DNA of 23,592 bases, taken from positions 1 through 23,592 of IMG/VR virus record IMGVR_UViG_3300025652_000564, one strand, 5' to 3'. A program made the position numbers and the translations under genes. Of the stretch, positions 1,763 through 23,592 are shown one piece after another. Below the pieces are notes generated by a model, which was not told where the DNA came from, made no database searches, and saw only the letters and a program-made list of their open reading frames with translations. The DNA is from a virus. Numbering within the stretch: position 1 is the first letter of the stretch; each line of letters opens with the position of its first letter.

Positions 1763-2159
1763 GTTCGCCAACTCCAATCCGATTTTCCCCCAGCATATCT
1801 GCCCCAAATACACTGGTAAATGGACAGTTAACAGTAAATGCTCGATAGTCCTCAGACCTCCGTAGAGCGTGTCTAATGGACTTTCTCAAAAGCAATAGCG
1901 TGGCCTTGCCTAAATTTTAAGAGCTTAGGAGCAACGTGAGACCCCTTCTCGTTGTTGTGACACCCTTACTGCCTATTGTTTTCATACAGTCAGAACCAGT
2001 GGTTTTATATACAGTAGTTGCTGTAAGTCATTGATATATAAGGAGAAAACACGTTTGAACAAACTATTTAGACCTAAGTCATTGATTTATAAGGGAAATA
2101 AAAATAAATGCAAATAAAGTGAATTATTTTTGAACTTATCAAGAACAGCGTTGACTAAG
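1763..2159. other. AT-rich non-coding region upstream of terS and the plus-strand operon
   Basis: No open frame of gene length is seen on either strand. The region separates the divergent terS and plus-strand operon transcripts, so promoters for both should lie here or in the RNA-rich part that follows. I could not find a good -35/-10 pair with 16-18 nt spacing. It contains the twin 20-bp repeat (2024-2094) and one copy of the ACTTRTYAAG motif (2134-2147). Confidence 0.55.
2024..2094 (+). repeat. Twin 20-bp direct repeat, promoter candidate
   Basis: TAAGTCATTGATATATAAGG at 2024-2043 and the same sequence with one change (ATTTATAAGG) at 2075-2094; start-to-start distance is 51 bp. Both copies continue with purine-rich GAGAAA or GAAATA. 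The length, near-identity and position ahead of the plus-strand operon fit either phage-specific promoters or a regulator's tandem operator. No RNA polymerase gene is visible in the window. Confidence 0.5.
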
Positions 2160-2160
2160 T

Positions 2161-2541
2161 AATACGCGGCAAGGAAGTCGCCTGTTTCAAAACGCTGGTC
2201 AGCGAAAGCATCAAGGCTCCACCGATGCGAGTAGGGAGGCCACCTCGGAAGATCGAGGCGCTCGGCTCTGATGTCATCATGACTAGCCCGTTACGCGATA
2301 CACACCTGATGCCCTGACAGCGGGGACAAGCAGTAGCAGGACGGATGACGAAAGCTCTGGCGAGTATGCAACCTCCTACTATTTATACGGCAAACGCAAG
2401 CATAGGCCGCAGAGTGGCGGCCTCTCATCTGAGTATCAGATGCCGATGGAGCGGTGAGCAATTAGCCAAGGTCAGCAAAATCTGACGATGTCACCCTGAG
2501 TATCGGGTGGTCATCACCAAGGCCGCAGAGTGTGCGGCTTT
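2161..2541 (+). ncRNA. Candidate structured RNA / long structured 5' leader
   Basis: About 380 nt, richer in G+C than the flanking DNA, with many local helices and no good gene. Helices seen: GCATC/GATGC (2208-2228), CCTCG/CGAGG (2243-2258), GGCCGC/GCGGCC (2405-2422), CATCTGA/TCAGATG (2426-2442), GTCAG/CTGAC (2471-2486), CACCC..GA/TC..GGGTG (2492-2509) and a 9-bp helix at 2519-2541. A long-range pairing GTAGG(g)AGG (2231-2239) with CCTCCTAC (2372-2379) could close a multibranch domain. The word GGCCGCAGAGTG occurs twice (2405, 2521), and two hairpins share the apex GAGTATC with different but pairing stems. No known RNA family was recognised. A 46-codon open frame from 2345 overlaps the hairpins and is probably chance. 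Confidence 0.5.
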
Positions 2542-2574
2542 AGTAATGATCATTTAATTACGAGGCAATTAATC

Positions 2575-2700
2575 ATGTATGACGATATCACTTTTCAAAC
2601 CTACAGAATCGCTGGACGATTCTTCAATCAATACCCGCCAGCCTTGTTGGCAATGTGGGCTTTCGTGGCAACCGCCACTTACCTTTCAATCGGAGCATAA
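2575..2700 (+). CDS. 41-aa small membrane protein
   Basis: A 41-codon frame from ATG 2575 with GAGG 9 nt upstream. The product has a polar N-terminus (MYDDITFQTYRIAGRF) and a hydrophobic C-terminal segment from about residue 23 to the end (ALLAMWAFVATATYLSIGA), long enough to span the membrane. It would be a tail-anchored inner-membrane peptide. The next gene starts 4 nt after the stop, with its own GGAG inside this frame's end. A longer frame from 2579 runs through this region in another phase, but its first 42 codons look like a shadow. The function is unknown. Confidence 0.6.
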   Translation: MYDDITFQTYRIAGRFFNQYPPALLAMWAFVATATYLSIGA

Positions 2701-2704
2701 GCAC

Positions 2705-3241
2705 ATGAGCATATTCGCAAGCAAGTACCAATTAATTCGCATCTGGGGTCAAGAACTTGGGTCATTCGGTTATTTCATCGAAAACGAACAGGCCAAAGCA
2801 GAGGCTGACAACGCGCCTCTGGAGGCGATCTATCAGCGTGACGGCCACTGGTTCACCATTCATGATGTGAACAATAAGAATGTCAGGCGCACAGTACTAG
2901 GCAAACTGCTGGAGTATTACGCTTACCACGAAACTGCTGACAAGCGTGACGCTTGGGAGAAGGCCAAGCCAAAGGTCATTGTGATTGATCGCCAGCGTCC
3001 AGCTCAGATCGAGATCGCCAAACAGTTTGTAAATCAGCACAGATATTCAGTTGATGCTTGGACTGCCAAGATCGAACGCCCCACAACGTCAGATGACGAG
3101 GCGTATCACAAAATATACTTCAGCTTAATTGGTGGCGAGTATGGCGAGGTCACCTGCATTGACGATGGCGAGTACGAGATAGAGATAGGCAGTTCAGACT
3201 CCTATAGCGGCCACCCAGTACTATTCACTTTTCAAATCTAG
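2705..3241 (+). CDS. Hypothetical protein, 178 aa
   Basis: I do not recognise this protein. The ATG at 2705 has GGAG (2692-2695) at a 9-nt spacing and begins MSIFASKYQLIRIWG. The product is soluble, rich in aromatic and charged residues, with no signal peptide, membrane segment or cysteine pair. Its last 40 residues are acidic (EVTCIDDGEYEIEIGSSD). The stop codon TAG (3239-3241) forms part of stem I of the hammerhead ribozyme that follows, so the 3' end of this mRNA would be set by ribozyme cleavage 49 nt downstream. Confidence 0.75.
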   Translation: MSIFASKYQLIRIWGQELGSFGYFIENEQAKAEADNAPLEAIYQRDGHWFTIHDVNNKNVRRTVLGKLLEYYAYHETADKRDAWEKAKPKVIVIDRQRPAQIEIAKQFVNQHRYSVDAWTAKIERPTTSDDEAYHKIYFSLIGGEYGEVTCIDDGEYEIEIGSSDSYSGHPVLFTFQI

Positions 3242-3296
3242 CCACTGATGAGGCCACAGGCGTGGCCGAAACGCGCTGAGGTTGCGCGTCTGGTAG
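3238..3296 (+). ncRNA. Type I hammerhead ribozyme, copy 1
   Basis: All conserved hammerhead parts are present in order. Stem I 5' strand CTA(G)CCA is at 3238-3244. Core CTGATGA is at 3245-3251. Stem II GGCCAC/GTGGCC (3252-3257, 3262-3267) has an AGGC loop. GAAA is at 3268-3271. Stem III ACGCGC/GCGCGT (3271-3276, 3284-3289) has a 7-nt loop. The GUC triplet ends at C3290, followed by stem I 3' strand TGGTAG (3291-3296). Cleavage is predicted between 3290 and 3291. Stem I is the open stem, so this is type I; one G is bulged in stem I. It sits between the 178-aa and 60-aa genes and uses the upstream stop codon in its own stem. Confidence 0.87.
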
Positions 3297-3338
3297 CCAA
3301 TTCATTAATCACTAACTAACTAAAAGTGGACAATAATC

Positions 3339-3521
3339 ATGAACATTAACAAATTAGACAGCGCCTTATGCGATATGTATGACATCAAAAGAGCCTTGAG
3401 CAAGGAAACCATGCAACTACCAAAAGATAATGATGGGACTGAAATAACCATCAGCGATTGCATCGATGACGTTATCGATTTTCTTGAAGGCTTAGAAATT
3501 AACGTGGAGGACGAATCATGA
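3339..3521 (+). CDS. Hypothetical acidic protein, 60 aa
   Basis: A small acidic protein, MNINKLDSALCDMYDIKRAL..., ending in EGLEINVEDES. It is probably helical at both ends, with no recognised domain. The ribosome binding site is weak (AGTGGA about 10 nt upstream). Its stop overlaps the ATG of the next gene (ATGA, 3518-3521), so the two are translationally coupled. Hammerhead cleavage at 3290/3291 would place it first on a new mRNA with a 5'-hydroxyl end and a 48-nt leader. The function is unknown. Confidence 0.7.
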   Translation: MNINKLDSALCDMYDIKRALSKETMQLPKDNDGTEITISDCIDDVIDFLEGLEINVEDES

Positions 3522-3688
3522 GTATAGCAGAACGCAACGAACGGGCTTTGGAGTACCTTGCCCAAAAGCATTACGAACGATCCTCAGCGAGAGCGAAGCT
3601 AACACTGACAATCATAGGTCTGGCCTATGGCGGGGTGATGGCCTATCTGATGGGTCTGATGCTGGCACTCGCAATACAGGGTGCATAA
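3518..3688 (+). CDS. 56-aa small membrane protein
   Basis: A 56-codon frame overlapping the preceding gene by ATGA, with GGAGG (3506-3510) as ribosome binding site. The first 28 residues are charged and helical (MSIAERNERALEYLAQKHYE...). They are followed by a long hydrophobic segment, about residues 29-54 (LTLTIIGLAYGGVMAYLMGL...), predicted to span the membrane. Topology would be N-terminus in the cytoplasm by the positive-inside rule. It resembles the 41-aa protein at 2575 only in architecture. The second hammerhead begins directly after its stop. Its function is unknown; a holin-like or membrane-anchoring role cannot be decided from sequence. Confidence 0.72.
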   Translation: MSIAERNERALEYLAQKHYERSSARAKLTLTIIGLAYGGVMAYLMGLMLALAIQGA

Positions 3689-3748
3689 CTCTACTGATGA
3701 TGGCCGCAGGGGTGTGGCCGAAACGCGATTAGGTGATCGCGTCTGGAG
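3689..3748 (+). ncRNA. Type I hammerhead ribozyme, copy 2
   Basis: Same architecture as copy 1. Stem I CTCTA (3689-3693) pairs with TGGAG (3744-3748), including one G-U pair. Core CTGATGA is at 3694-3700. Stem II GGCCGC/GTGGCC (3702-3707, 3714-3719) has an AGGGGT loop. GAAA is at 3720-3723. Stem III ACGCGAT/ATCGCGT (3723-3729, 3736-3742) has a TAGGTG loop, and the GUC triplet ends at C3743. Cleavage is predicted between 3743 and 3744. Stems I and III differ from copy 1 but still pair, which supports structure over chance repetition. The odd point is one extra U (3701) between the core and stem II, which could slow the ribozyme. Confidence 0.8.
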
Positions 3749-3823
3749 ACCCAATGAACTTTTCACTATGCCTGTTGTCAATATGTAAATGGGCATTACT
3801 TCTAACCACTCAGGAATATGATT

Positions 3824-4009
3824 ATGCAAATATTTGTCGAACAAAAATCAGTCTATGGGGCTGACAAGATTTACCCCGTCTGCCCGAAGGCCGCTATGTT
3901 TGCGGCTATCGCTGGCACTACCACCTTGACCCCCGCCACTGTCAAATTGATACAGGCACTGGGTGTCGAGATCGCTCTCAAACCAGTTACTCTGAAGGAG
4001 TTATTATGA
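3824..4009 (+). CDS. Hypothetical protein, 61 aa
   Basis: Product MQIFVEQKSVYGADKIYPVC... continues with a helical stretch AAMFAAIAGTTTLTPATVKL and ends in VTLKELL. It is soluble and compact, with no catalytic motif recognised. The second in-frame ATG (3824) is preferred, because AGGA (3812-3815) lies 8 nt from it and only 2 nt from the ATG at 3818. It is the first gene after ribozyme copy 2 and overlaps the 333-aa gene by ATGA (4006-4009). So it belongs to the AAA+/VWA cassette and may be a small partner of it. Confidence 0.72.
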   Translation: MQIFVEQKSVYGADKIYPVCPKAAMFAAIAGTTTLTPATVKLIQALGVEIALKPVTLKELL

Positions 4010-5007
4010 ATCTTATAGGCCAGAATCAGGCATCGATCAACGAACGTGCCTGTAACAATCTAATGACTATCGGTGTCACCATCTCAGGATTCGGTGGCTT
4101 CAAATCACTTATCTCAGCGGTCACCAAGCTTCAGAAGTCTAGCCGTATCGCCTCTGAGCGTCAGCGTCTAGCCCAGATAATTGCTGAGTTAACGCCATTC
4201 CAGAAGCCTTTTGACGAGGTCAAGGCCGCGCAGTCATTGCTACGCACCTATCTGTACAACAAGACCTTGTCGCTATCCACAGCGCAGGAAGGCCAGCAAA
4301 AGAAGGGTGACCGCGCAGTGTTCACATCCGAAGTGCCAGAAGTGTACAACCATCTCAAGAATCTTGAGGCCAGCGCAGATGATGCGGCACTGGCTCTGGG
4401 TGACCGCTGGGAGGCCATGCGTGACGATGTTATCGATGTTGTGCGCGAGTTGGAGATCAGCGTTGATGACCTGCTGACAATGTCAGGCCATGACGTTGCC
4501 CGTAAGTTTGTCACCACTGTCGGCACTCCCCAGACCCTCCATGTCAATGATGTCTCAGGCATGGCACTACCTGCCTCGCTGATCGAGCGCATTGATCAGG
4601 AGTCTCAGGATCAACTTACCAAGATGCTGGAAGGTGCTAAGGCTCAGGCCATTACCGACACTCTGGAGCATATGGACTTGCTGGTGACCCAGCTTACCAG
4701 CGGCTCTCGCTTGTCTCCCAGCCTGATCGAACACGCCAAGACGCACAGCACAAAGCTACGCGGCATGGCACTGTCCTATGACAATGACCCTCGACTGATC
4801 GCCATGTGCGACTCAATTGACGAGAGCATTGTCAACCAGACCACCGACAACTGGAAGTCTGACAACACAGCGCGTGAGGCATCTCTTGAGACGGCCATAA
4901 ACGTCAAAAAGAACCTTGCCGAGCTTACCAAGCCTGTCAGTACTGAACGAATTTCATACGCTGATGTCCAGCTAGCGGGTGGTTTGCTGGATGACCTGAT
5001 CGACTAA
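4006..5007 (+). CDS. 333-aa helical protein of the AAA+/VWA cassette (DUF3150-like, tentative)
   Basis: A mostly helical, acidic protein of 333 aa without cysteine clusters or membrane segments. Its N-terminal part (GFGGFKSLISAVTKLQKSSR, then QRLAQIIAELTPFQKPFDEV) and long charged helices suggest a coiled or helical-bundle fold. It has a strong AAGGAG site and ATGA coupling to the 61-aa gene. It is followed by the AAA+ ATPase after 26 nt. Proteins of about this size, annotated DUF3150-like, are known next to MoxR-type ATPases and VWA proteins in phages and plasmids. I assign this on gene order and general appearance, not on a motif I can verify. A substrate-adaptor or scaffold role is inference. 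Confidence 0.6.
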   Translation: MNLIGQNQASINERACNNLMTIGVTISGFGGFKSLISAVTKLQKSSRIASERQRLAQIIAELTPFQKPFDEVKAAQSLLRTYLYNKTLSLSTAQEGQQKKGDRAVFTSEVPEVYNHLKNLEASADDAALALGDRWEAMRDDVIDVVRELEISVDDLLTMSGHDVARKFVTTVGTPQTLHVNDVSGMALPASLIERIDQESQDQLTKMLEGAKAQAITDTLEHMDLLVTQLTSGSRLSPSLIEHAKTHSTKLRGMALSYDNDPRLIAMCDSIDESIVNQTTDNWKSDNTAREASLETAINVKKNLAELTKPVSTERISYADVQLAGGLLDDLID

Positions 5008-5033
5008 CTCTTAACTTATCAAGGAATAATATT

Positions 5034-6140
5034 ATGTCACACACTAAAACTACTCTCAAAGAGATGGAGCAAATGCTCCCCATCATTTTCGCCACGCCAT
5101 TCGTTCAGCCCTTTATGTTGCTGGGCGGTACTGGTACTGGTAAATCCCAATGGATCAGCACTGTTGTTCGCAGTGCCTTTGCTGAGTCTGTCGGCCTTAT
5201 CGCTGACGACATCGGCATGGTGACTCTGCGCGTCAGTCAATGTGATGCTCAGGAGCTTGCTGGTGTTGCACTGCCAGCCAAGGGTGACGATGGTCACCTG
5301 ATCACCCAGTACACCAAGTCACCTGTCGTGCAGATGGTCGAGAAGACTGGCAAAGAGCATGGCATCTTGTTCTATGATGAGGTTGCTCAGGCCACCAACG
5401 ATGTTCAGAAGGCTCTGGCCGATTCGTTTGATCGATCCGAGCATAGCATTGGCGGCTGGGATTTGCCGCAGGGCTGGGTGGTCATCGGTGCTGGCAACCG
5501 CACTACTGACAAGTCAGGAGCTAATCGCTTGCTGGCTCACCTGACTGACCGAGTGACAATATTTGAGGTCGAGTCTGATGTTCAAGGCTGGGCAAACTGG
5601 GCATTGGAGAACGATGTTCACCCGCTCATCATCGGTTGCGCGTTGCAGTATGAAGAGCAGGGCTTCTTTGCTGATGGCGTTCCTGCTACCTATGAGCAGT
5701 ATTGCTCCTTCAGGTCTGCCACCTACGCCAGCAATCACCTGACGGCCTTTCTCGATATCAATGGTCAAGACGCGCCCATCACTGGTGTGATCGCCAAGCT
5801 TATCGAGGCCAACATCGGTGTAGGTGCTACCGCCATGCTGTCGCAGTATGCAGATGAGCGCGGCAAAGTGCCTACTGGCAATGACATTCAGGCTGATCCG
5901 CTGGGTGCGCTTATCCCCGATGGCACTGGTCACCAGCTTCTAGCGGCCAACAATGCTCTGGCATCATCGGTTGACTCGCTCACCGCTGACAACGCATTCG
6001 CGTACATTCAGCGACTGCCACGCGCTGATCTCAAAGTGACAATGTCGCGCAGACTTCAGGCAATCATGACCACCAACGGCTGGGTAACCAACAGCGATGT
6101 GGTATCTCAATTCAACGCCAAAAATGCAGAGGTGCTGTAA
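5034..6140 (+). CDS. MoxR/CobS-like AAA+ ATPase
   Basis: A 368-aa AAA+ ATPase of the MoxR group, which includes the CobS subunit of cobalt chelatase. Walker A is GGTGTGKS (residues 31-38). Walker B is ILFYDEVAQA (about 111-120). A sensor-1-like segment VVIGAGNRTTDKSGANR follows at about 150-166, then LLAHLTDRVTIFEVE with the arginine-finger position. MoxR ATPases act as oligomeric chaperones that remodel or activate a client together with a VWA partner, and here that partner is encoded immediately downstream, overlapping at TAATG. The ribosome binding site AAGGA is 8 nt upstream. The client in the phage is unknown. The name cobS, often given to phage homologues, would overstate function. Confidence 0.88.
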   Translation: MSHTKTTLKEMEQMLPIIFATPFVQPFMLLGGTGTGKSQWISTVVRSAFAESVGLIADDIGMVTLRVSQCDAQELAGVALPAKGDDGHLITQYTKSPVVQMVEKTGKEHGILFYDEVAQATNDVQKALADSFDRSEHSIGGWDLPQGWVVIGAGNRTTDKSGANRLLAHLTDRVTIFEVESDVQGWANWALENDVHPLIIGCALQYEEQGFFADGVPATYEQYCSFRSATYASNHLTAFLDINGQDAPITGVIAKLIEANIGVGATAMLSQYADERGKVPTGNDIQADPLGALIPDGTGHQLLAANNALASSVDSLTADNAFAYIQRLPRADLKVTMSRRLQAIMTTNGWVTNSDVVSQFNAKNAEVL

Positions 6141-7651
6141 TGGCTAATTTCAATGCAAAGCAACTATTCACTTGCGAGAATCCTGACATGGTCAGGTCTC
6201 GCATGGTAATCGCCACGATGCAGATCATGCAGGCAAAGGTGCGAGTTCACTACACCCTGCTGATGAATACCAAGCTGATCTGGACTTCTCGCATCCCAAC
6301 AGCCGCCACTGACGGCTACTATGTCTATGTGAATGAGCAGTTCTTTCGCTCGTTGCCGAACGACAATCAACGCGCTTTTCTCTTTGCTCATGAGGTGTCG
6401 CACATAATCCTGCAACACCCACAGCGCGGCAAAGCCTATATGGATCGCGGCTATGTCAGGACTGTCGGCAACAGCAAGATTCCTTTCAATCCGCACTTCT
6501 ACAACTGTGACGCTGATGCAGTGATCAACGCTGACCTGATTGCTATGGGTCTGGAGATGATACCTGCTGGCATCCTACGCAATGATGTTGACCGCAATAT
6601 GTTTGTTGATGACATCTATCTGGCGCGTGATTGGAATCAACCTGAACAGCCCGAACAGCCTGAGCCTGACAATGGTGATGACGATGGCGATCAGGGTGGC
6701 TCAGATGGTCAGTCTGATGACCAGCCTACGGATGATGCCGATCAGCCCAGTGATGATGGCGATGATCAGCAGGGCAACGATGATGCTGGCGGTGCTGGCG
6801 GTGATGATGACTCTTCTGATCAACCTGTTGACGATAGCGATCCGCTCGATGGCGCGACTTCCGAAGGTCATGATACTCACCTTGTTCCTCAGTATGATGG
6901 CGATAGTGATGAAGACATTGTCGATCAGATCAAAGCTGATGTCGAATCTGTCGAGCGTGTGATCGATCAGGCTCTGGATGATCTGGTTCGTGCCGAAGAC
7001 AATGAGGGCCACAAGCAGGTCAATACTTCCGAGAGTATTGCTCAGAGCGGTGGCAGAGTCAGGGCTATCAACGCATCCAGTGTTGACTGGCGATCTGCTC
7101 TGGCTGACCGCGCTACTGCGATGTCGGCTGGCGAAGAGTCTAGCTGGAAGCGCATCAATCGCAGACGACTGGTGAACACTGGTGTTATCAGCCCTTCCAA
7201 GATCGGCACGTTCAATCGCATCGGTATCACTGTGGACACTAGCTGGTCTTGTATGCGATACGAGTCAACTGTCAGCGCGTTCTTCAATGAGGCCGCGTCA
7301 TTGATCGACACCCTTGCCCCTCGCTCTGGCGCGGTGCTAGTGCAGTGTGGCGAGTCTGTGCGTCAGGTTGATGAGCCTATGTCTGGCTCTGAGTTCTTGG
7401 ACGTTGATGTCTCTATGGGTGGCGGTACTTATATGGCGGCATCTGTCGAGTGGATGGAAGCTAATGGTGTTGACTGCGATATCCACTTGATCTTCACTGA
7501 TGGTGAGATGTGCTGGGAGGATTACAACGTCTGTGCAGAATCTGGTGCGATACTGATTCTGGTCAAGCACCCTGACTTCTGGACTCGCAAGATGATCGAT
7601 GAGTCTGGTATCGATTACATCGTGGCAAGTGATGACCCCCTTGCCGCATAA
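6140..7651 (+). CDS. HExxH metallopeptidase-like + VWA domain protein (CobT-like)
   Basis: A 503-aa protein in three parts. Residues about 1-165 are a DUF2201-type N-terminal putative metallopeptidase domain with H84-E-V-S-H88 (FAHEVSHIILQHP). Residues about 167-255 are a very acidic D/G/Q/P linker, as in CobT. The C-terminal part is a VWA-like domain with a MIDAS motif D366-T-S-W-S370, and DIHLIFTDGEMCW further on. The family pairs with MoxR-type ATPases; the ATPase gene overlaps it by one base. The HExxH motif suggests zinc binding, but proteolytic activity of this family is unproven. The stop is followed by a hairpin and T-rich sequence at 7658-7680. Function in the phage cycle is unknown. 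Confidence 0.87.
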   Translation: MANFNAKQLFTCENPDMVRSRMVIATMQIMQAKVRVHYTLLMNTKLIWTSRIPTAATDGYYVYVNEQFFRSLPNDNQRAFLFAHEVSHIILQHPQRGKAYMDRGYVRTVGNSKIPFNPHFYNCDADAVINADLIAMGLEMIPAGILRNDVDRNMFVDDIYLARDWNQPEQPEQPEPDNGDDDGDQGGSDGQSDDQPTDDADQPSDDGDDQQGNDDAGGAGGDDDSSDQPVDDSDPLDGATSEGHDTHLVPQYDGDSDEDIVDQIKADVESVERVIDQALDDLVRAEDNEGHKQVNTSESIAQSGGRVRAINASSVDWRSALADRATAMSAGEESSWKRINRRRLVNTGVISPSKIGTFNRIGITVDTSWSCMRYESTVSAFFNEAASLIDTLAPRSGAVLVQCGESVRQVDEPMSGSEFLDVDVSMGGGTYMAASVEWMEANGVDCDIHLIFTDGEMCWEDYNVCAESGAILILVKHPDFWTRKMIDESGIDYIVASDDPLAA

Positions 7652-7657
7652 CTTGAC

Positions 7658-7680
7658 GGGGCGGGAACGCCCCTTTACTT
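7658..7680 (+). terminator. Possible weak terminator after the VWA gene
   Basis: GGGGCG (7658-7663), GGAA tetraloop, CGCCCC (7668-7673), then TTTACTTTT. The stem is perfect with a stable GNRA loop, but the T run is interrupted, so termination may be partial. It begins 7 nt after the stop of the VWA gene. Confidence 0.6.
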
Positions 7681-8063: not shown

Positions 8064-8288
8064 ATGATACTGATGACTGTAAAAGACAATGACTGCGATG
8101 GCCGAAACGACATCAAGGATATTCGTGTTGAGGGCGCAACTGATGATGAGTTGTTGTACTCAATAGGCGTGTTGACGTTTATCGCTAAGGACTTAGGTCA
8201 CCCATTCGTTGCTGGGCAATTAGCTCAAGCTGAAGACGCGCTGAAATCAATCATTATCAATGGATATCCAGCCGAGGGCTTGTCATGA
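8064..8288 (+). CDS. Hypothetical protein, 74 aa
   Basis: Strong AGGAGAAG ribosome binding site just before ATG 8064. The product begins with a charged, D/N-rich segment (DNDCDGRNDIKDIRVEG) and continues with a helical half (IGVLTFIAKDLGHPFVAGQL). No known domain was recognised. Its stop overlaps the start of the 147-aa gene by ATGA, indicating coupled translation. Confidence 0.72.
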   Translation: MILMTVKDNDCDGRNDIKDIRVEGATDDELLYSIGVLTFIAKDLGHPFVAGQLAQAEDALKSIIINGYPAEGLS

Positions 8289-8769: not shown

Positions 8770-8799
8770 GCCCTTCTCTACGGAGAGGGGCTTTTTTTT
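8770..8799 (+). terminator. Strong Rho-independent terminator of the plus-strand operon
   Basis: Stem GCCCTTCTC (8770-8778) pairs with GAGAGGGGC (8783-8791), 9 bp with one G-U. It is closed by a TACG loop in the very stable C(UNCG)G form and followed by eight T. It lies 41 nt after the last plus-strand gene and ends transcription before the convergent recombination operon. Confidence 0.93.
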
Positions 8800-17594: not shown

Positions 17595-20500
17595 CTAGTC
17601 CCTATATAGCCCACCAACAGCAGGTAGCTTGGCTGGGCTATTAAGCGCCTCTTTCAACACTGGCACTTGCTTCAAGTATTCTGACCTCGCTTGCTCGATC
17701 TCTCTAATGATTTCCGCTTTCCGCTCTGGCGTGATATCTTCTGCCGTTTGAATTGCTTCTATCTGCCTCCTGCTCGTCTTCAGAAGACCGTCAAGGTAGT
17801 TAACATTACCTGCCAATCCAACTATATGCTCTCTACCCTTCAGGTATTTCTGGTACTGATCTACCTTTCCGTCACCAATAAGCGAGTTGAGAGTGCCTAC
17901 TGTGCGCTTAACTTCTGACCGAATATCATAGTAATCATCCATATTTTTACGCCCAAACTCAGAGCCTAAGAATCTTTTCAGGAATGGCGCTCTGTCTAGA
18001 GTCATAGATGCAAGCTGATCAGAACCTTCAACCTTCAGAGGATTGTCCCCGCCAAGAAGGTCGGGAGTTCTCAGTATCGTATCAAGAGCATTTAACGCAT
18101 AAATTCCAAGAGTCCCAGAGTATCCTTGCATGACATGGTCTATCTTGATTGGGCTTATGTTAAGGCTTTCACCCAACATAATAGCCATCTGACTTGATCC
18201 TACTCTCTGCCTGAATCCTTTTTCAAGGTTGTTTTCATTCATGAATACAGACTCCACAGGCTTGCCTGTAAAGAAGTTGTAGTTCAGGGACGCTTCGATG
18301 ATTGGCGCAACAAACTGTGCGCCCAACGGATTAATCTCTAGGGTGCTTGTCACTCCCCTGACAGTAGAGTCAACGGCTTCTTTCATCGTTGTCTTATCTC
18401 TACCCTCAAGACCAAGAACGTCTTCGACAAAGTTTGTTTCCTTGTTAGCTACCCCCAGTATTCTTTCAGGAAGAGTCTTAAATATTAATCCAACCTCAAA
18501 GGGGATTGGTAGCATTAGCGGATACTTATCGCTAAAGGGGTTAGGTAGGATAAAGTTGTTGTCTCTCTCAAACTCAGATCGCTCTTTGTACTGATCGTCA
18601 TCGCTGACCATTAGCCAATATGCCGCAGACAGTCCTGTTAGCATTAAGCCTCTGAACATAAAGTTACGGGTCTGCTCTGCCTTAGACTTATCCTTGTTGG
18701 CGTTATATCGGCCTCTTGATGATCTCCAAAGAACATCCAAGCCTTGGAATCTTGCATTAAGGAATGGAATTGCCGCTGTAACCACGCGAGCTAGCGAGCT
18801 ACTCCCTCTTCTTGAGAAGTTAATAACCTCAAGAGCCTGAAAAGCCGCTTCTGCTTCGTTACCAGTTCGCGCCAAAACGTCATCGTAAACAGATTTTCTT
18901 GTTGCCGCATCAGACTGTGTAGTCTTCTGACCAAGAAAGTCCCACATCCTAACGAATGGGTTAATTCCCAGCCCATTTCGCTTTTTTACTTCCTTGCTGA
19001 ACTCACCATATATGTCTTTCGGGTCATTGCCAAAGTCATAGCCGCCAACAACACCGTACTGCTCAAGAAGGTCTGCGCCAGAATTAAAGTTCTTTAGCGT
19101 GTCCACTACTGGGGTAAAGTTAGCCCCACTTGTTACGAACGTAGATAGAGTATCTCGCATCATGTTGACGACCATGAATGCTGGGTCTCTTGTTATTAAC
19201 TCTCTAAGAACAGTAGATGGTACGCCGACAATGTTTGTTAGAATCGTTTCTATTTCGCCAGACCCCATACCCTGCATGGACTCATAGATAAGAGGATCGC
19301 TTATAGAAAACTTACGGTTTTTCCCGTTGACTCTGAATGCGATAACATTTTGAGCCTTCATGTCACCTTTGACTTCGTATCCCAAGCCGACCTTAACCAT
19401 GTCTCTGACAATACGTTGCTGGGCTACGTTCCTCATACCCATATGAATGGCGGCATTTAGATTTCTGGTGACAGCTTCAAGAAGAGGGACATTTACAGCA
19501 GTGTCTCCTCCTTTCAGTGCTTTAAAGTTGGCCGCGCTCGTCATGCCAGTGAACACAGGAGGCATTTGACTGCCACCTTCTTCCTCTAACTGACGATAGA
19601 AAGGAACATAGTCAGACTGATCAGCCCAAACCTGCGCGGTCTCAGCATCCAGTACGCCAGTATCTCTAAGGAACTGAATGGTCTTGGCGTTGTAGGCTTG
19701 CCACGCGCTGTACCATTCCTGAATGATTGGCTGACCAGTTTCTGGGTTAGTGTACTTGGCGATCTCGGCTTCAAGAACTGCAAGTGACTTAGCGCCAGCA
19801 GGGGTTTCTTTACCCTCTTTCGCAAGCCTTTGAGACCTAACCGCAACAGCGTATGCTTGAGCTAACTCCTCAAGGTTTACGTTATAGTTGTTCTGAACCA
19901 GAGGAGCCATAACATCTATAAGGCCGCGATACTCTTTGCCGTTGTGAACAAACTTCTCAACTTTTGTAATGCCGTTATTATATGTAACGACACCACCCTT
20001 GATGGCCGCGCTTGAAACGCCTTGCGCCCTGTCGGCAAATAATGCCGCCGCCATCGCGCTTGCGTCAGCGAGAACATCCCTAAACCCAAGGTTGGGGTCG
20101 GTGTAGACTTGTTCTAGTCGAGCGTACTTGTTGATCGCTTTCTGCTTGAACCTTGTTAACATCTCACGAATAGAGCTTTGGTTGCTCGCCTCCAGATAAA
20201 CTTCTCTGGCGGTTTTGTCGGGCGCGGTGGAGTTAACTAGGCTACCGATCTCTGCTTGAGCTTCAGGGGAATACTCTGGCGATCTTGATCGAGAGTACAT
20301 GCCCTCATCAAGAATCTTGGAGCCTTTCTCTGGGTTCTGAGCAACATACTGGGCGCGAGGCTCTGCCTTGACGCTGTATAAAGGTATTGACGTAGCTGTA
20401 GTCGCTTCGGCATCGACAATGTTCTTCTCGACAACCGCTTCGATAGCTTCTTCTGGAATGGTGGTGATGTTATCTCTAGGCGTGGAGCCTTTAGATAAGA

Positions 20501-23500
20501 ACTCTTGAGCTTCCGATCTGCCTGTTATTCCCTGTATGTCTCTTGCAACAATGCCTGTAGTCTTTGAGGCATCTATTGGCTGAGGGAGTTTTTCGGGGTC
20601 TTTCATCTCGTAGAGCCATTTATTCTGACCCTGCTTGATATCAAATTTGCTTCCCTCTGGAACAAGGTGAAGCTCTCTTGATGCATCGAACTCGGATTGA
20701 CCGACAACTTCAGGCTCACCAACAGTGGCGTATCCTACAAGCTGTGCCTTCTGACCCCGCTTTGTTTCGATAATGCCAACGCGCTTGCCGACATAAGGGC
20801 GTAATGAGTCGCTATCTCTAGTCTCAAATCTTTTCTGCCCAGATACAATAAGATCGGCGTAGTTAGTGTTGCCGTCTGTAGCTACATTTATGCCTCTTGT
20901 TGCGCCTTCTTGCTGGGCTTGACCTGTATTCCCCTGCGCCCCAAATATGCGATCAAGTTCTTCTTTATTTCTTCGTGCGATGCCTGCGGCTTTATCGTCA
21001 TAAGTTCCGTTTTCTTTGAGCTTTCTGATGCCTTCATTGGTGAGTGTCTCCTCAAATGTATTAAGATCAAATATACCTAACTGATCTCCAGCTTCTGCAA
21101 TATACAGAGCTTCCTCTACACTGTCTACTGTAATCGATCCGTCAAGATAATAATATCCATCTTCACTGCTGAACCATCCTCCCAAGTACACTGGTTGGTC
21201 TAGCGTGTCAGCCATCGCTTTAAAGTTCCTAACCGCCTGATCTATAACGTCATCGGTAATTTCTTCGGGTAGAACTCTTACCTCTAAGTTCTTAATAGGA
21301 GCTACAGCCACCCCGGTGGGTGTTTCAAACGTGTTCGGATCAACAGTAAAGCCTTCAGGGTTTGACTTTATAAACTCAGAAATACTTGTCGATCTAGAGG
21401 CTAAGGGTTGATCTATTGATTCCGCATCTTGGCCTGTAGTTCCTTGAACCAAGACTTGTCCTGCATCAGTCGCGCCCCCTCGTCCGTCTCCCTGTCCCAT
21501 CCCAACCAGTCGAAGCCCTTCTCGCCCATCAAAGGCTTCTGTTGTGCTTTCTGTGACGATCCTCGGTTGGTCGAGGGCTGGGTTGTTGTCGATTTCTGCG
21601 TAGCCATTAAATACGTCCTCTTGCTTTATCGCATCGTAAACCTGTTTAGGCTTACCCATTATTGCGTTAATATAATCAGGCGGTATTAATCGCCCTGTAC
21701 GATTAAATCTAGATACCATCCTATCTATTGCGTTTTCTGGAGTTACTTCTACATTAACAAGCTCGACAGTATACCCTTGATCCTTCAGGCTAGACGCAAG
21801 ACTCATTATCTTGTTCTGGCCGTGACCAATGGTGGGGATCACAAGGTTCTCGCCCTTGTCCATAGCGAAAAGTGTCAACGCATCGGATAGAACTTTTGAC
21901 TCCTCATGAACAGCATTTGCTCCAACGCCATCAGCAAACTCTGGAAATACTTCTTTAGCCTGATCGGGATCAACTATTCTTGCGCTCAAGTCTCTCGCTA
22001 TTGGGTTTGCAACGGTACTTTTCCCCGAAGCGGGTAGACCCATAAATATTATAGCCTTCCTGTCTGTAGCTATAGACTGGCCTTCAGGATATTGCATCCC
22101 GTCATCAGTCCAAGCAGACTGCTCAGAGACCGCCATAAGATGATTTACAGCCGCACCGTATCCTTTCTTCTCAACCATCTGACCGTTTTCTTCAACAATA
22201 ACGGGTCTGATGTTAGACCACCTTTTAGTCCCATAGGCGGGATTTGTTGTTGTCGCAGGTATCTCATTCATCGCATCAACAGCCGACTGAATCTCTGGGC
22301 TGTCGAGCTTATTGAGAGAGGCTAGCGGCTGGTCGAGGCTTTCTTCTCTCGCTTGGCTTGGGTCTCGTACTTCTTGAGCAGTCGCTCCATCGCCTTCTGC
22401 CCTGCCTGCATTGCGTCTTTTTCTAGTTTTGGTGAGGTATTTATTGGTGAGTTCTGAGATTGTTTCATTTGTTGATGCTCCTTGATAGCCAGACTGCTTT
22501 GCGGCATTGATCATATAGAACCAACGCATAGCTTGTAGCGCGGCTGGGTCTGCCTTTGTCCCAGAGACCTTGTCATACTCCTCCTTAAACATCGTGGAGA
22601 AGTCTTGGAACAACTGATCTTCAGATACGTTGGCTGGGAGTCCAGTGTTTTGACGGAAAAGCCCGTCAAAGTAGCTACGGATAAATCTTGATTCCCAAAC
22701 GTCTATTGTCGTGTATCTACTGTCGCCTGTCAAATTCAGGGTGTATGCGCCTATCTTCTTGCCAAAGATAAACATTCTTGGGATGCTTTCGTTTTGACCA
22801 GTAGCCTGCTGGACTAGAGACTTTATAGCGCCCATACCAGACACGTTGCTCTTGTAGCCCATCTCTCTGTTAAACTTCTGCAACTCTTTAGGGCTGACAC
22901 CTTCTCGCAAAAACTCTACAGCCTCAACGGCTCCGCCCTTTTCTGCTATTAACCTGTCAAAAACTTTTAGAGACCTTGCCTTGGTTGGCCCTGTTGTCCC
23001 TGAAATTGAGAATGGTGAGCTTGCAACTACAACATTACCTTTAGGGCTTGTGCCTAGCTCAATAGATTCTAGATTGCCTTCCTTCTTATACAGATCGAAT
23101 ACATTGACAGCGTCACCAACATTTGAAGGGAGAGATGTCGCTGGTGAGCTAAGACCGTTAGCCATTTGGTAGAAAAGAAGATCGCCGTCACTGATGTCAC
23201 CGTAATCTTCAGATAGAGCCAACCTTACGGCTCTCATATCTTCAGCGTAATAGTCCTGATACTTGGGGTTTTCAGCAACAAACTTCTGAACATCCCGCAA
23301 GGCTCTTTTGCTTGCAGTCCTAACCTTATCAGGAGATACGGTTCCTCCAACCTCCTGCATCATCTTCGGCCAGAAGTTGCCAAAAAACTCTTCCTCAACA
23401 GCGGTATTATAGTCAGCGTACTTGGTTGTCGCTCTATCCACTGCGCTCTGGATCGGGGATGACGATCTGCGCCTAGAAGCCATACCCTCATCTGGCTCAA

Positions 23501-23592
23501 CGAAATCTGGCATAGACTGACCAGTCTGCGTCACTTCAGGTTGATCTGCCTGAGCAAAGCTTGTGGTTCCTGTCCTACTATCATATTGGGGG
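17595..23592 (-). CDS. Large polyvalent virion-type protein, 5' end outside window
   Basis: An open frame of at least 1998 codons. A GTG at 23534 would give 1979 aa, but the frame continues in phase to the window edge and no ribosome binding site precedes the GTG, so the start is probably outside. Numbering from that GTG, domains are: a phage N-terminal domain about 235-370 (KKIGAYTLNLTGDSRYTTID; DUF7178-like); a zeta-toxin-like P-loop kinase about 490-650 (Walker A GLPASGKST 499-507); a polyvalent-associated domain about 725-835; an ASCH/PUA-like domain about 880-985; and an LPD38-type region about 1400-1650, then helices to the end. Such proteins are probably packed in the virion and injected. 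Short repeated linkers separate domains. Confidence 0.88.
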   Translation of the reverse strand, partial: PQYDSRTGTTSFAQADQPEVTQTGQSMPDFVEPDEGMASRRRSSSPIQSAVDRATTKYADYNTAVEEEFFGNFWPKMMQEVGGTVSPDKVRTASKRALRDVQKFVAENPKYQDYYAEDMRAVRLALSEDYGDISDGDLLFYQMANGLSSPATSLPSNVGDAVNVFDLYKKEGNLESIELGTSPKGNVVVASSPFSISGTTGPTKARSLKVFDRLIAEKGGAVEAVEFLREGVSPKELQKFNREMGYKSNVSGMGAIKSLVQQATGQNESIPRMFIFGKKIGAYTLNLTGDSRYTTIDVWESRFIRSYFDGLFRQNTGLPANVSEDQLFQDFSTMFKEEYDKVSGTKADPAALQAMRWFYMINAAKQSGYQGASTNETISELTNKYLTKTRKRRNAGRAEGDGATAQEVRDPSQAREESLDQPLASLNKLDSPEIQSAVDAMNEIPATTTNPAYGTKRWSNIRPVIVEENGQMVEKKGYGAAVNHLMAVSEQSAWTDDGMQYPEGQSIATDRKAIIFMGLPASGKSTVANPIARDLSARIVDPDQAKEVFPEFADGVGANAVHEESKVLSDALTLFAMDKGENLVIPTIGHGQNKIMSLASSLKDQGYTVELVNVEVTPENAIDRMVSRFNRTGRLIPPDYINAIMGKPKQVYDAIKQEDVFNGYAEIDNNPALDQPRIVTESTTEAFDGREGLRLVGMGQGDGRGGATDAGQVLVQGTTGQDAESIDQPLASRSTSISEFIKSNPEGFTVDPNTFETPTGVAVAPIKNLEVRVLPEEITDDVIDQAVRNFKAMADTLDQPVYLGGWFSSEDGYYYLDGSITVDSVEEALYIAEAGDQLGIFDLNTFEETLTNEGIRKLKENGTYDDKAAGIARRNKEELDRIFGAQGNTGQAQQEGATRGINVATDGNTNYADLIVSGQKRFETRDSDSLRPYVGKRVGIIETKRGQKAQLVGYATVGEPEVVGQSEFDASRELHLVPEGSKFDIKQGQNKWLYEMKDPEKLPQPIDASKTTGIVARDIQGITGRSEAQEFLSKGSTPRDNITTIPEEAIEAVVEKNIVDAEATTATSIPLYSVKAEPRAQYVAQNPEKGSKILDEGMYSRSRSPEYSPEAQAEIGSLVNSTAPDKTAREVYLEASNQSSIREMLTRFKQKAINKYARLEQVYTDPNLGFRDVLADASAMAAALFADRAQGVSSAAIKGGVVTYNNGITKVEKFVHNGKEYRGLIDVMAPLVQNNYNVNLEELAQAYAVAVRSQRLAKEGKETPAGAKSLAVLEAEIAKYTNPETGQPIIQEWYSAWQAYNAKTIQFLRDTGVLDAETAQVWADQSDYVPFYRQLEEEGGSQMPPVFTGMTSAANFKALKGGDTAVNVPLLEAVTRNLNAAIHMGMRNVAQQRIVRDMVKVGLGYEVKGDMKAQNVIAFRVNGKNRKFSISDPLIYESMQGMGSGEIETILTNIVGVPSTVLRELITRDPAFMVVNMMRDTLSTFVTSGANFTPVVDTLKNFNSGADLLEQYGVVGGYDFGNDPKDIYGEFSKEVKKRNGLGINPFVRMWDFLGQKTTQSDAATRKSVYDDVLARTGNEAEAAFQALEVINFSRRGSSSLARVVTAAIPFLNARFQGLDVLWRSSRGRYNANKDKSKAEQTRNFMFRGLMLTGLSAAYWLMVSDDDQYKERSEFERDNNFILPNPFSDKYPLMLPIPFEVGLIFKTLPERILGVANKETNFVEDVLGLEGRDKTTMKEAVDSTVRGVTSTLEINPLGAQFVAPIIEASLNYNFFTGKPVESVFMNENNLEKGFRQRVGSSQMAIMLGESLNISPIKIDHVMQGYSGTLGIYALNALDTILRTPDLLGGDNPLKVEGSDQLASMTLDRAPFLKRFLGSEFGRKNMDDYYDIRSEVKRTVGTLNSLIGDGKVDQYQKYLKGREHIVGLAGNVNYLDGLLKTSRRQIEAIQTAEDITPERKAEIIREIEQARSEYLKQVPVLKEALNSPAKLPAVGGLYRD

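Follow-up and report, generated by a model that had tools for sequence, protein, structure and literature searches.

Hammerhead-like ribozymes docked on stop codons at the cassette borders of a viral operon

The window analyzed here is a linear virus record of the IMG/VR database (IMGVR_UViG_3300025652_000564), which was taken at its full length of 23,592 bases and whose left end holds a fragment of a large terminase. Its plus strand holds an operon (2575–7651) of eight genes in three cassettes separated by two hammerhead-like ribozymes: the 41- and 178-amino acid (aa) genes; the 60- and 56-aa genes; and the 61-aa gene, the 333-aa gene, and the genes for an AAA+ ATPase and a VWA-like protein. 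This layout had been proposed by the first-pass annotation, and the coordinates of the open reading frames (ORFs) and the gap sizes bear out the three cassettes, their genes, and their order. The genes had also been described as closely packed and mostly overlapping, which agrees with gaps of 4, −4, −4, 26, and −1 nucleotides (nt) within the cassettes and with overlaps at three of these five junctions (two ATGA, one TAATG). The border gaps of 97 and 135 nt are the only ones in the operon above 60 nt. Each holds one hammerhead-like motif, and a structural descriptor and a covariance model both find the ribozymes exactly there, as had been claimed, and on the coding strand. The label "early" for the operon is unsupported.

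Both ribozymes consist, in this order, of stem I, CUGAUGA, stem II, GAA, stem III with A-U closure, GUC, and stem I, and they were therefore assigned to the type I hammerheads. The elements of the type I core (CUGANGA, GAA, an A-U pair closing stem III, and a cleavage triplet with A, C, or U in last place, here GUC) are present in both copies, as are three helices with an open stem I. The copies are 81% identical and separated by 404 nt. As expected of clustered phage hammerheads, two lie close together and flank a pair of small genes, and the virus record that holds them also has a terminase gene. Pairing between loop II and the 3′ tail is possible in the window (GGC/GCC and GGGU/ACCC, 3 and 4 pairs). 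At least four such pairs occur in 26/55 hammerheads with long loops, compared with 17.8% on average and 36.4% at most in 1000 swaps of the tails. Unrelated viral hammerheads repeatedly carry an additional U after the CUGANGA core, ahead of stem II, e.g., in the loci L013, L014, L021, L030, L207, and L325.

The structural descriptor detected these two ribozymes and no other in the window. It gave zero matches on the reversed sequence of 488 sources (~4.2 Mb), and none of 118 bacterial-genome stretches sharing the core motif passed it. With a covariance model for which 40 hammerheads were taken from contigs other than the window, ribozyme 1 scored 45.1 bits (E 4.6e-13) and ribozyme 2 scored 50.6 bits (E 5.6e-15), the next match in the window reaching 10.9 bits. 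The model sequences (55–68 nt) were hand-picked from 57 one-per-locus sequences and include the window relatives L008, L010, L011, L021, and L030; because they had been selected by the stem descriptor, the covariation of the model is partly built in. Plain folding yields the three helices, with modest z-scores of −0.9 and −2.0. The core pattern CTGANGA..GAAA alone is not above chance (4 in the window vs 2.9 expected), so the evidence is carried by the stems. A third core-pattern match at 8070 was considered as a further ribozyme and rejected by both the descriptor and the model (7.6 bits).

The stop codon of the 178-aa ORF (3239–3241) falls inside stem I of ribozyme 1, and that of the 56-aa ORF adjoins stem I of ribozyme 2. 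Stop-codon placement was surveyed in viral hammerheads from IMG/VR motif scans, in which sample A comprised 251 and sample B 118 listed loci; all survey counts are among the matches listed, since three of the four viral motif scans each gave at least 120 stretches. Sample A yielded 80 distinct hammerheads in 55 loci and sample B 60 in 42 loci. Duplicate ribozyme sequences were merged (92 detections to 82 distinct), and the window's own L001 and L002 were dropped. Genes were taken as the longest ORFs of at least 50 aa near the site and are not curated calls. A same-strand upstream stop lies at −7 to +10 nt from the core C of CUGANGA in 88/142 hammerheads (46/80 in sample A, 40/60 in sample B, and 2/2 in the window). 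Random positions in the same loci gave 4.4%, 4.1%, and 5.5%, respectively, and other CTGANGA sites had a stop in this range in 51 of 581 cases. The main peak, at 3 to 8 nt, places the stop against stem I and includes 53/142 hammerheads vs 9/581 other sites; in a second peak at −4 (25/142 vs 34/581), the core's own UGA serves as the stop. Counting one ribozyme per locus, docking is found in 59/98. Thirteen extra hammerheads were detected by the model only, and 11 of them fit the docking, three via ORFs of 29–42 aa. An ORF starts within 60 nt after the cut in 92/142 hammerheads. In L010 (first ribozyme), L011, L024, and L008, the first strand of stem I has the upstream stop at its 3′ end, and the partner of this stop follows (TAG/CTA, TAA/TTA). 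At the second ribozyme of L008 and L010, the upstream frame extends across the catalytic core as far as stem II, where it stops; the ribozyme thus encodes the final residues TDEA of the upstream protein.

Two null models took the density of viral genes into account. With gap sizes kept and 18 nt reserved for a ribosome site, 46/72 stops lie within 8 nt vs 25.1 expected; in the strictest version (starts within 60 nt), the count is 34/54 vs 23.9 expected (p 0.0013). Tight stop placement looks like a general rule for viral hammerheads.

The best reading of the locus, which we rate at about an even chance, is that processing joints docked on stop codons double as cassette joints. The ribozymes, docked on the final stops of cassettes 1 and 2, would fold and cut the polycistronic RNA during its synthesis, 49 and 55 nt past these stops. 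No stop codon would be lost from the upstream messenger RNAs (mRNAs), whose 3′ end would be the stem III hairpin carrying a 2′,3′-cyclic phosphate. The downstream mRNAs would begin with a 5′-OH and a short leader, which would measure 48 nt for the 60-aa gene and 80 nt for the 61-aa gene. A co-transcribed operon would in this way be split into self-contained modules, and transcription would not be ended. We infer co-transcription, cleavage in the cell, and a benefit of cutting.

The first-pass annotation had proposed that, as a result of cutting, the three cassettes differ in stability and dosage while being served by a single early promoter. We regard this as doubtful. The predicted cut ends do differ as it described, and the cassettes are otherwise densely packed, but the timing is unsupported, and a separate hairpin could set the dosage. 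A promoter scan around the operon gave 5 predictions vs 9.1 in shuffled sequences, located none for the operon and none in the two gaps, and lacks the power to exclude promoters.

Stem I and a large part of the core would be hidden under a ribosome standing at the stop codon, and cutting and terminating should therefore exclude each other. We tentatively suggest, at a low probability, that these are translation-gated hammerheads: with the stop built into stem I or the core, the ribosome would unfold or cover the ribozyme, which would cut only once the ribosomes have cleared. If this is true, the joint would report translation of the upstream gene and never make mRNAs without a stop, and gene-plus-ribozyme cassettes could be freely shuffled.

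Cassette differences at ribozymes were found among close relatives. At the ribozyme 2 border, two hammerheads flank a 117-aa gene in L010, at a place where L491 has a single hammerhead. The blocks 549–858 and 1196–1687 of L010 match 1–311 and 228–717 of L491 and overlap on the single ribozyme, so that the difference is a 420-nt gene-plus-ribozyme unit. L492 also has a single hammerhead there, and L008 keeps both ribozymes with an 87-aa gene in the slot, similar at its C-terminal end only. L130/L308 looks like a second case. Hammerheads frequently come in arrays: of 98 hammerhead sources (window included), 13 have two and 12 have three or more, with six in L065. Core similarity is 0.77 within a genome vs 0.64 between genomes. 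Because copies of the same genome are alike and located at gene ends, the ribozymes could double as joints where gene-plus-ribozyme cassettes have been gained, lost, or swapped, and the cassette differences suggest that they act as joints of phage gene modules. We infer recombination between ribozymes as the cause.

Resemblance between same-genome copies and breakpoints within the motif would also be expected if the motifs were dispersed repeats and recombination joints at the DNA level only, without RNA cutting. This is very unlikely, as the stems vary whereas the catalytic core and the putative tertiary pairing are conserved, and the placement after stops is strand-specific. A further alternative is that excised middle cassettes are circularized as mRNAs by self-ligation or the host RtcB. 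The 5′ end left by an array neighbor pairs 5/5 with stem I of the next ribozyme in 22/44 cases, compared with 3.2% between loci; the window pairs at 3 of 5 positions only, and copy similarity alone can explain the excess. The available part of Perreault et al. (2011; PMC3088659) reports that no spliced or circular products were detected, and we hold such circles to be most improbable.

Contigs fetched by the ribozyme motif alone proved to carry cassette 3. As such fetching is biased, relatives were searched by the AAA+ protein and the terminase. An alignment-based AAA+ search found them, whereas single-protein scans with AAA+ and with VWA gave no relatives. The 333-aa gene, AAA+, and VWA occur together, with sequence upstream of them, in seven contigs. 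A hammerhead precedes the 333-aa gene in four of them (L490, L491, L492, and L493), with one small ORF in between in L493; L491, L492, and L493 are contigs of L011, L024, and L021. The expectation of ribozymes at the same borders in related phages was thus borne out for the border of ribozyme 2 in 4/7 operons; it failed for that of ribozyme 1 and for the remaining three operons. Presence tracks closeness to the window, AAA+ identity being 45–55% with and 35–44% without a hammerhead. Three contigs stand outside the seven: L494 ends before the 333-aa gene, L496 lacks it, and L515 is a contig of L493. Among 80 terminase-selected contigs, many of which are not long enough to include the region, six have hammerheads, eight in total, all located 5′ of the terminase and on the opposite strand. 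Relatives of the 61-aa ORF occur next to hammerheads in other contigs. In L366 and L305, such genes begin shortly 3′ of the hammerhead, as in the window, whereas in L122 the gene is located before it.

Several observations weigh against the reading of stop-docked joints. Three of the seven relatives (L495, L510, and L514) have no hammerhead at the ribozyme 2 border, the ribozyme 1 border was seen in no relative, and ten stretches of annotated phage records had no hammerhead at a convincing score (0/10). The hammerhead core of L490 has a one-base insertion, and some copies such as this one may have little or no activity. Ribozyme 2 carries a single additional U ahead of stem II (3701, plus strand). 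Rfam, run on the whole window and on 3200–3850, gave no hammerhead above the gathering score, a cut-off that is the curators' threshold and lies outside the definition of a hammerhead. The only family touching ribozyme 1 was the RAGATH-1 hammerhead (RF03152; 19.6 bits vs a gathering score of 56.3), whose match differs in lacking the first 20 model positions; ribozyme 2 was matched by no Rfam hammerhead family. Genome compactness accounts for part of the stop docking, and for sample B alone, the strictest null gave 11/20 vs 8.0 expected (p 0.11).

Terminator-like hairpins lie 30–45 nt past the cut in five relatives (L008, L010, L011, L492, and L490). Dosage of cassette 3 may therefore follow attenuation and not the ribozyme: such a hairpin past ribozyme 2 would set read-through into the third cassette, and the ribozyme would just trim the 3′ end of the upstream mRNA. 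We consider this unlikely, since the window hairpin has no T run and its fold is no more stable than that of shuffled sequence (z −0.18). The idea that hammerheads are generally accompanied by an intrinsic terminator was rejected, with 7/139 hammerheads vs 7–11 of 142 random sites.

Table 1 Features of the operon and its surroundings in the window
Feature	Position	Strand	Remarks
Leader before the operon, ~400 nt without a likely gene	2130–2545	+	Putative non-coding
41-aa ORF	2575–2700	+	Cassette 1; no family match
178-aa ORF	2705–3241	+	Cassette 1; no family match
Type I hammerhead-like ribozyme 1	3239–3297	+	Predicted cut 3290/3291
60-aa ORF	3339–3521	+	Cassette 2
56-aa ORF	3518–3688	+	Cassette 2; hydrophobic stretch judged by eye; ATGA overlap with 60-aa ORF
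Type I hammerhead-like ribozyme 2	3688–3750	+	Predicted cut 3743/3744
Hairpin between ribozyme 2 and 61-aa gene	3768–3796	+	Without T run, unlike relatives
61-aa ORF	3824–4009	+	Cassette 3
333-aa protein, DUF3150-like	4006–5007	+	Cassette 3; weak matches of orthologue set
AAA+ ATPase, 368 aa	5034–6140	+	Cassette 3; PHROG 1297, MoxR-like
Metallopeptidase-like plus VWA-like protein, 503 aa	6140–7651	+	Cassette 3; DUF2201_N/DUF2201
Terminator-like hairpin after the operon	7658–7673	+	Sequence prediction

The features are listed in Table 1. Judged from its predicted proteins, cassette 3 resembles a DUF3150-like/MoxR/VWA module. DUF3150 was weakly matched by four of eight aligned orthologues of the 333-aa protein (best E 9.3e-5), and the window copy was not matched at that limit. 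No match to this protein was found in annotated phages; the annotated phage MinM2 has genes bearing DUF3150, MoxR, and VWA names near one another. At the nucleotide level, annotated phages gave no match to the window or to the arrays L065 and L078, and short stretches only to L207.

Conservation of the leader in L024 and L490 is limited to its first ~60 nt (around TTGAACTTAT); the leader folds only slightly better than shuffled sequence (z −1.44). Farther upstream, between divergent operons, an exact pair of GTCATTGATWTATAAGG copies lies 51 nt apart (2027–2043 and 2078–2094, plus strand). At up to three mismatches, GTCATTGATWTATAAGG has 3 matches vs 0.2 expected, and the copies are possibly an operator or a phage promoter. 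A strong terminator-like hairpin with eight T lies at 8770–8791 (plus strand), where plus- and minus-strand genes meet; a sub-threshold Rfam anti-hemB match on it is probably owing to this hairpin. On the minus strand, 17595–23534 is a single 1979-aa ORF, possibly a large multi-domain phage protein.

The arrangement itself is not new, as clusters of hammerheads flanking phage genes and the processing of transcripts were published in 2011. According to the available part of PMC3088659, clustered prophage hammerheads lie around genes, processing of long transcripts was proposed, three arrays cleaved in vitro and one in E. coli, and circles were considered; the term "stop codon" is absent from its main text as far as available. 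These clusters are like the present one in that hammerheads flank genes of varying identity. The present case differs in being an uncultivated virus contig known from its sequence, in which stop docking and cassette differences were measured. The HHphage of the haloviruses HF1 and HF2 likewise lies upstream of a phage gene block, and a transcript 5′ end has been reported near its cut (available parts of PMC3088659 and PMC7230728), but it is a single ribozyme with a core insertion, in an archaeal virus, with a helicase gene downstream. The Theta (HDV-like) ribozymes of gut phages (PMC10879173, available part) are also small self-cleaving ribozymes used by phages; they differ in fold and are linked to recoding based on transfer RNA, of which none was found in the window.

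The part worth following is the placement rule. No report of stop docking or cassette exchange at hammerheads was found among titles and the openings of abstracts in mostly non-subscription literature, and in the available part of a 2017 review (PMC6155905), the role of prokaryotic hammerheads is called an open question. A stop against stem I, found in two separately drawn samples, makes a testable claim on mRNA 3′ ends and translation. If the gating by ribosomes is true, RNA processing would be coupled to ribosome traffic in a protein-free way.

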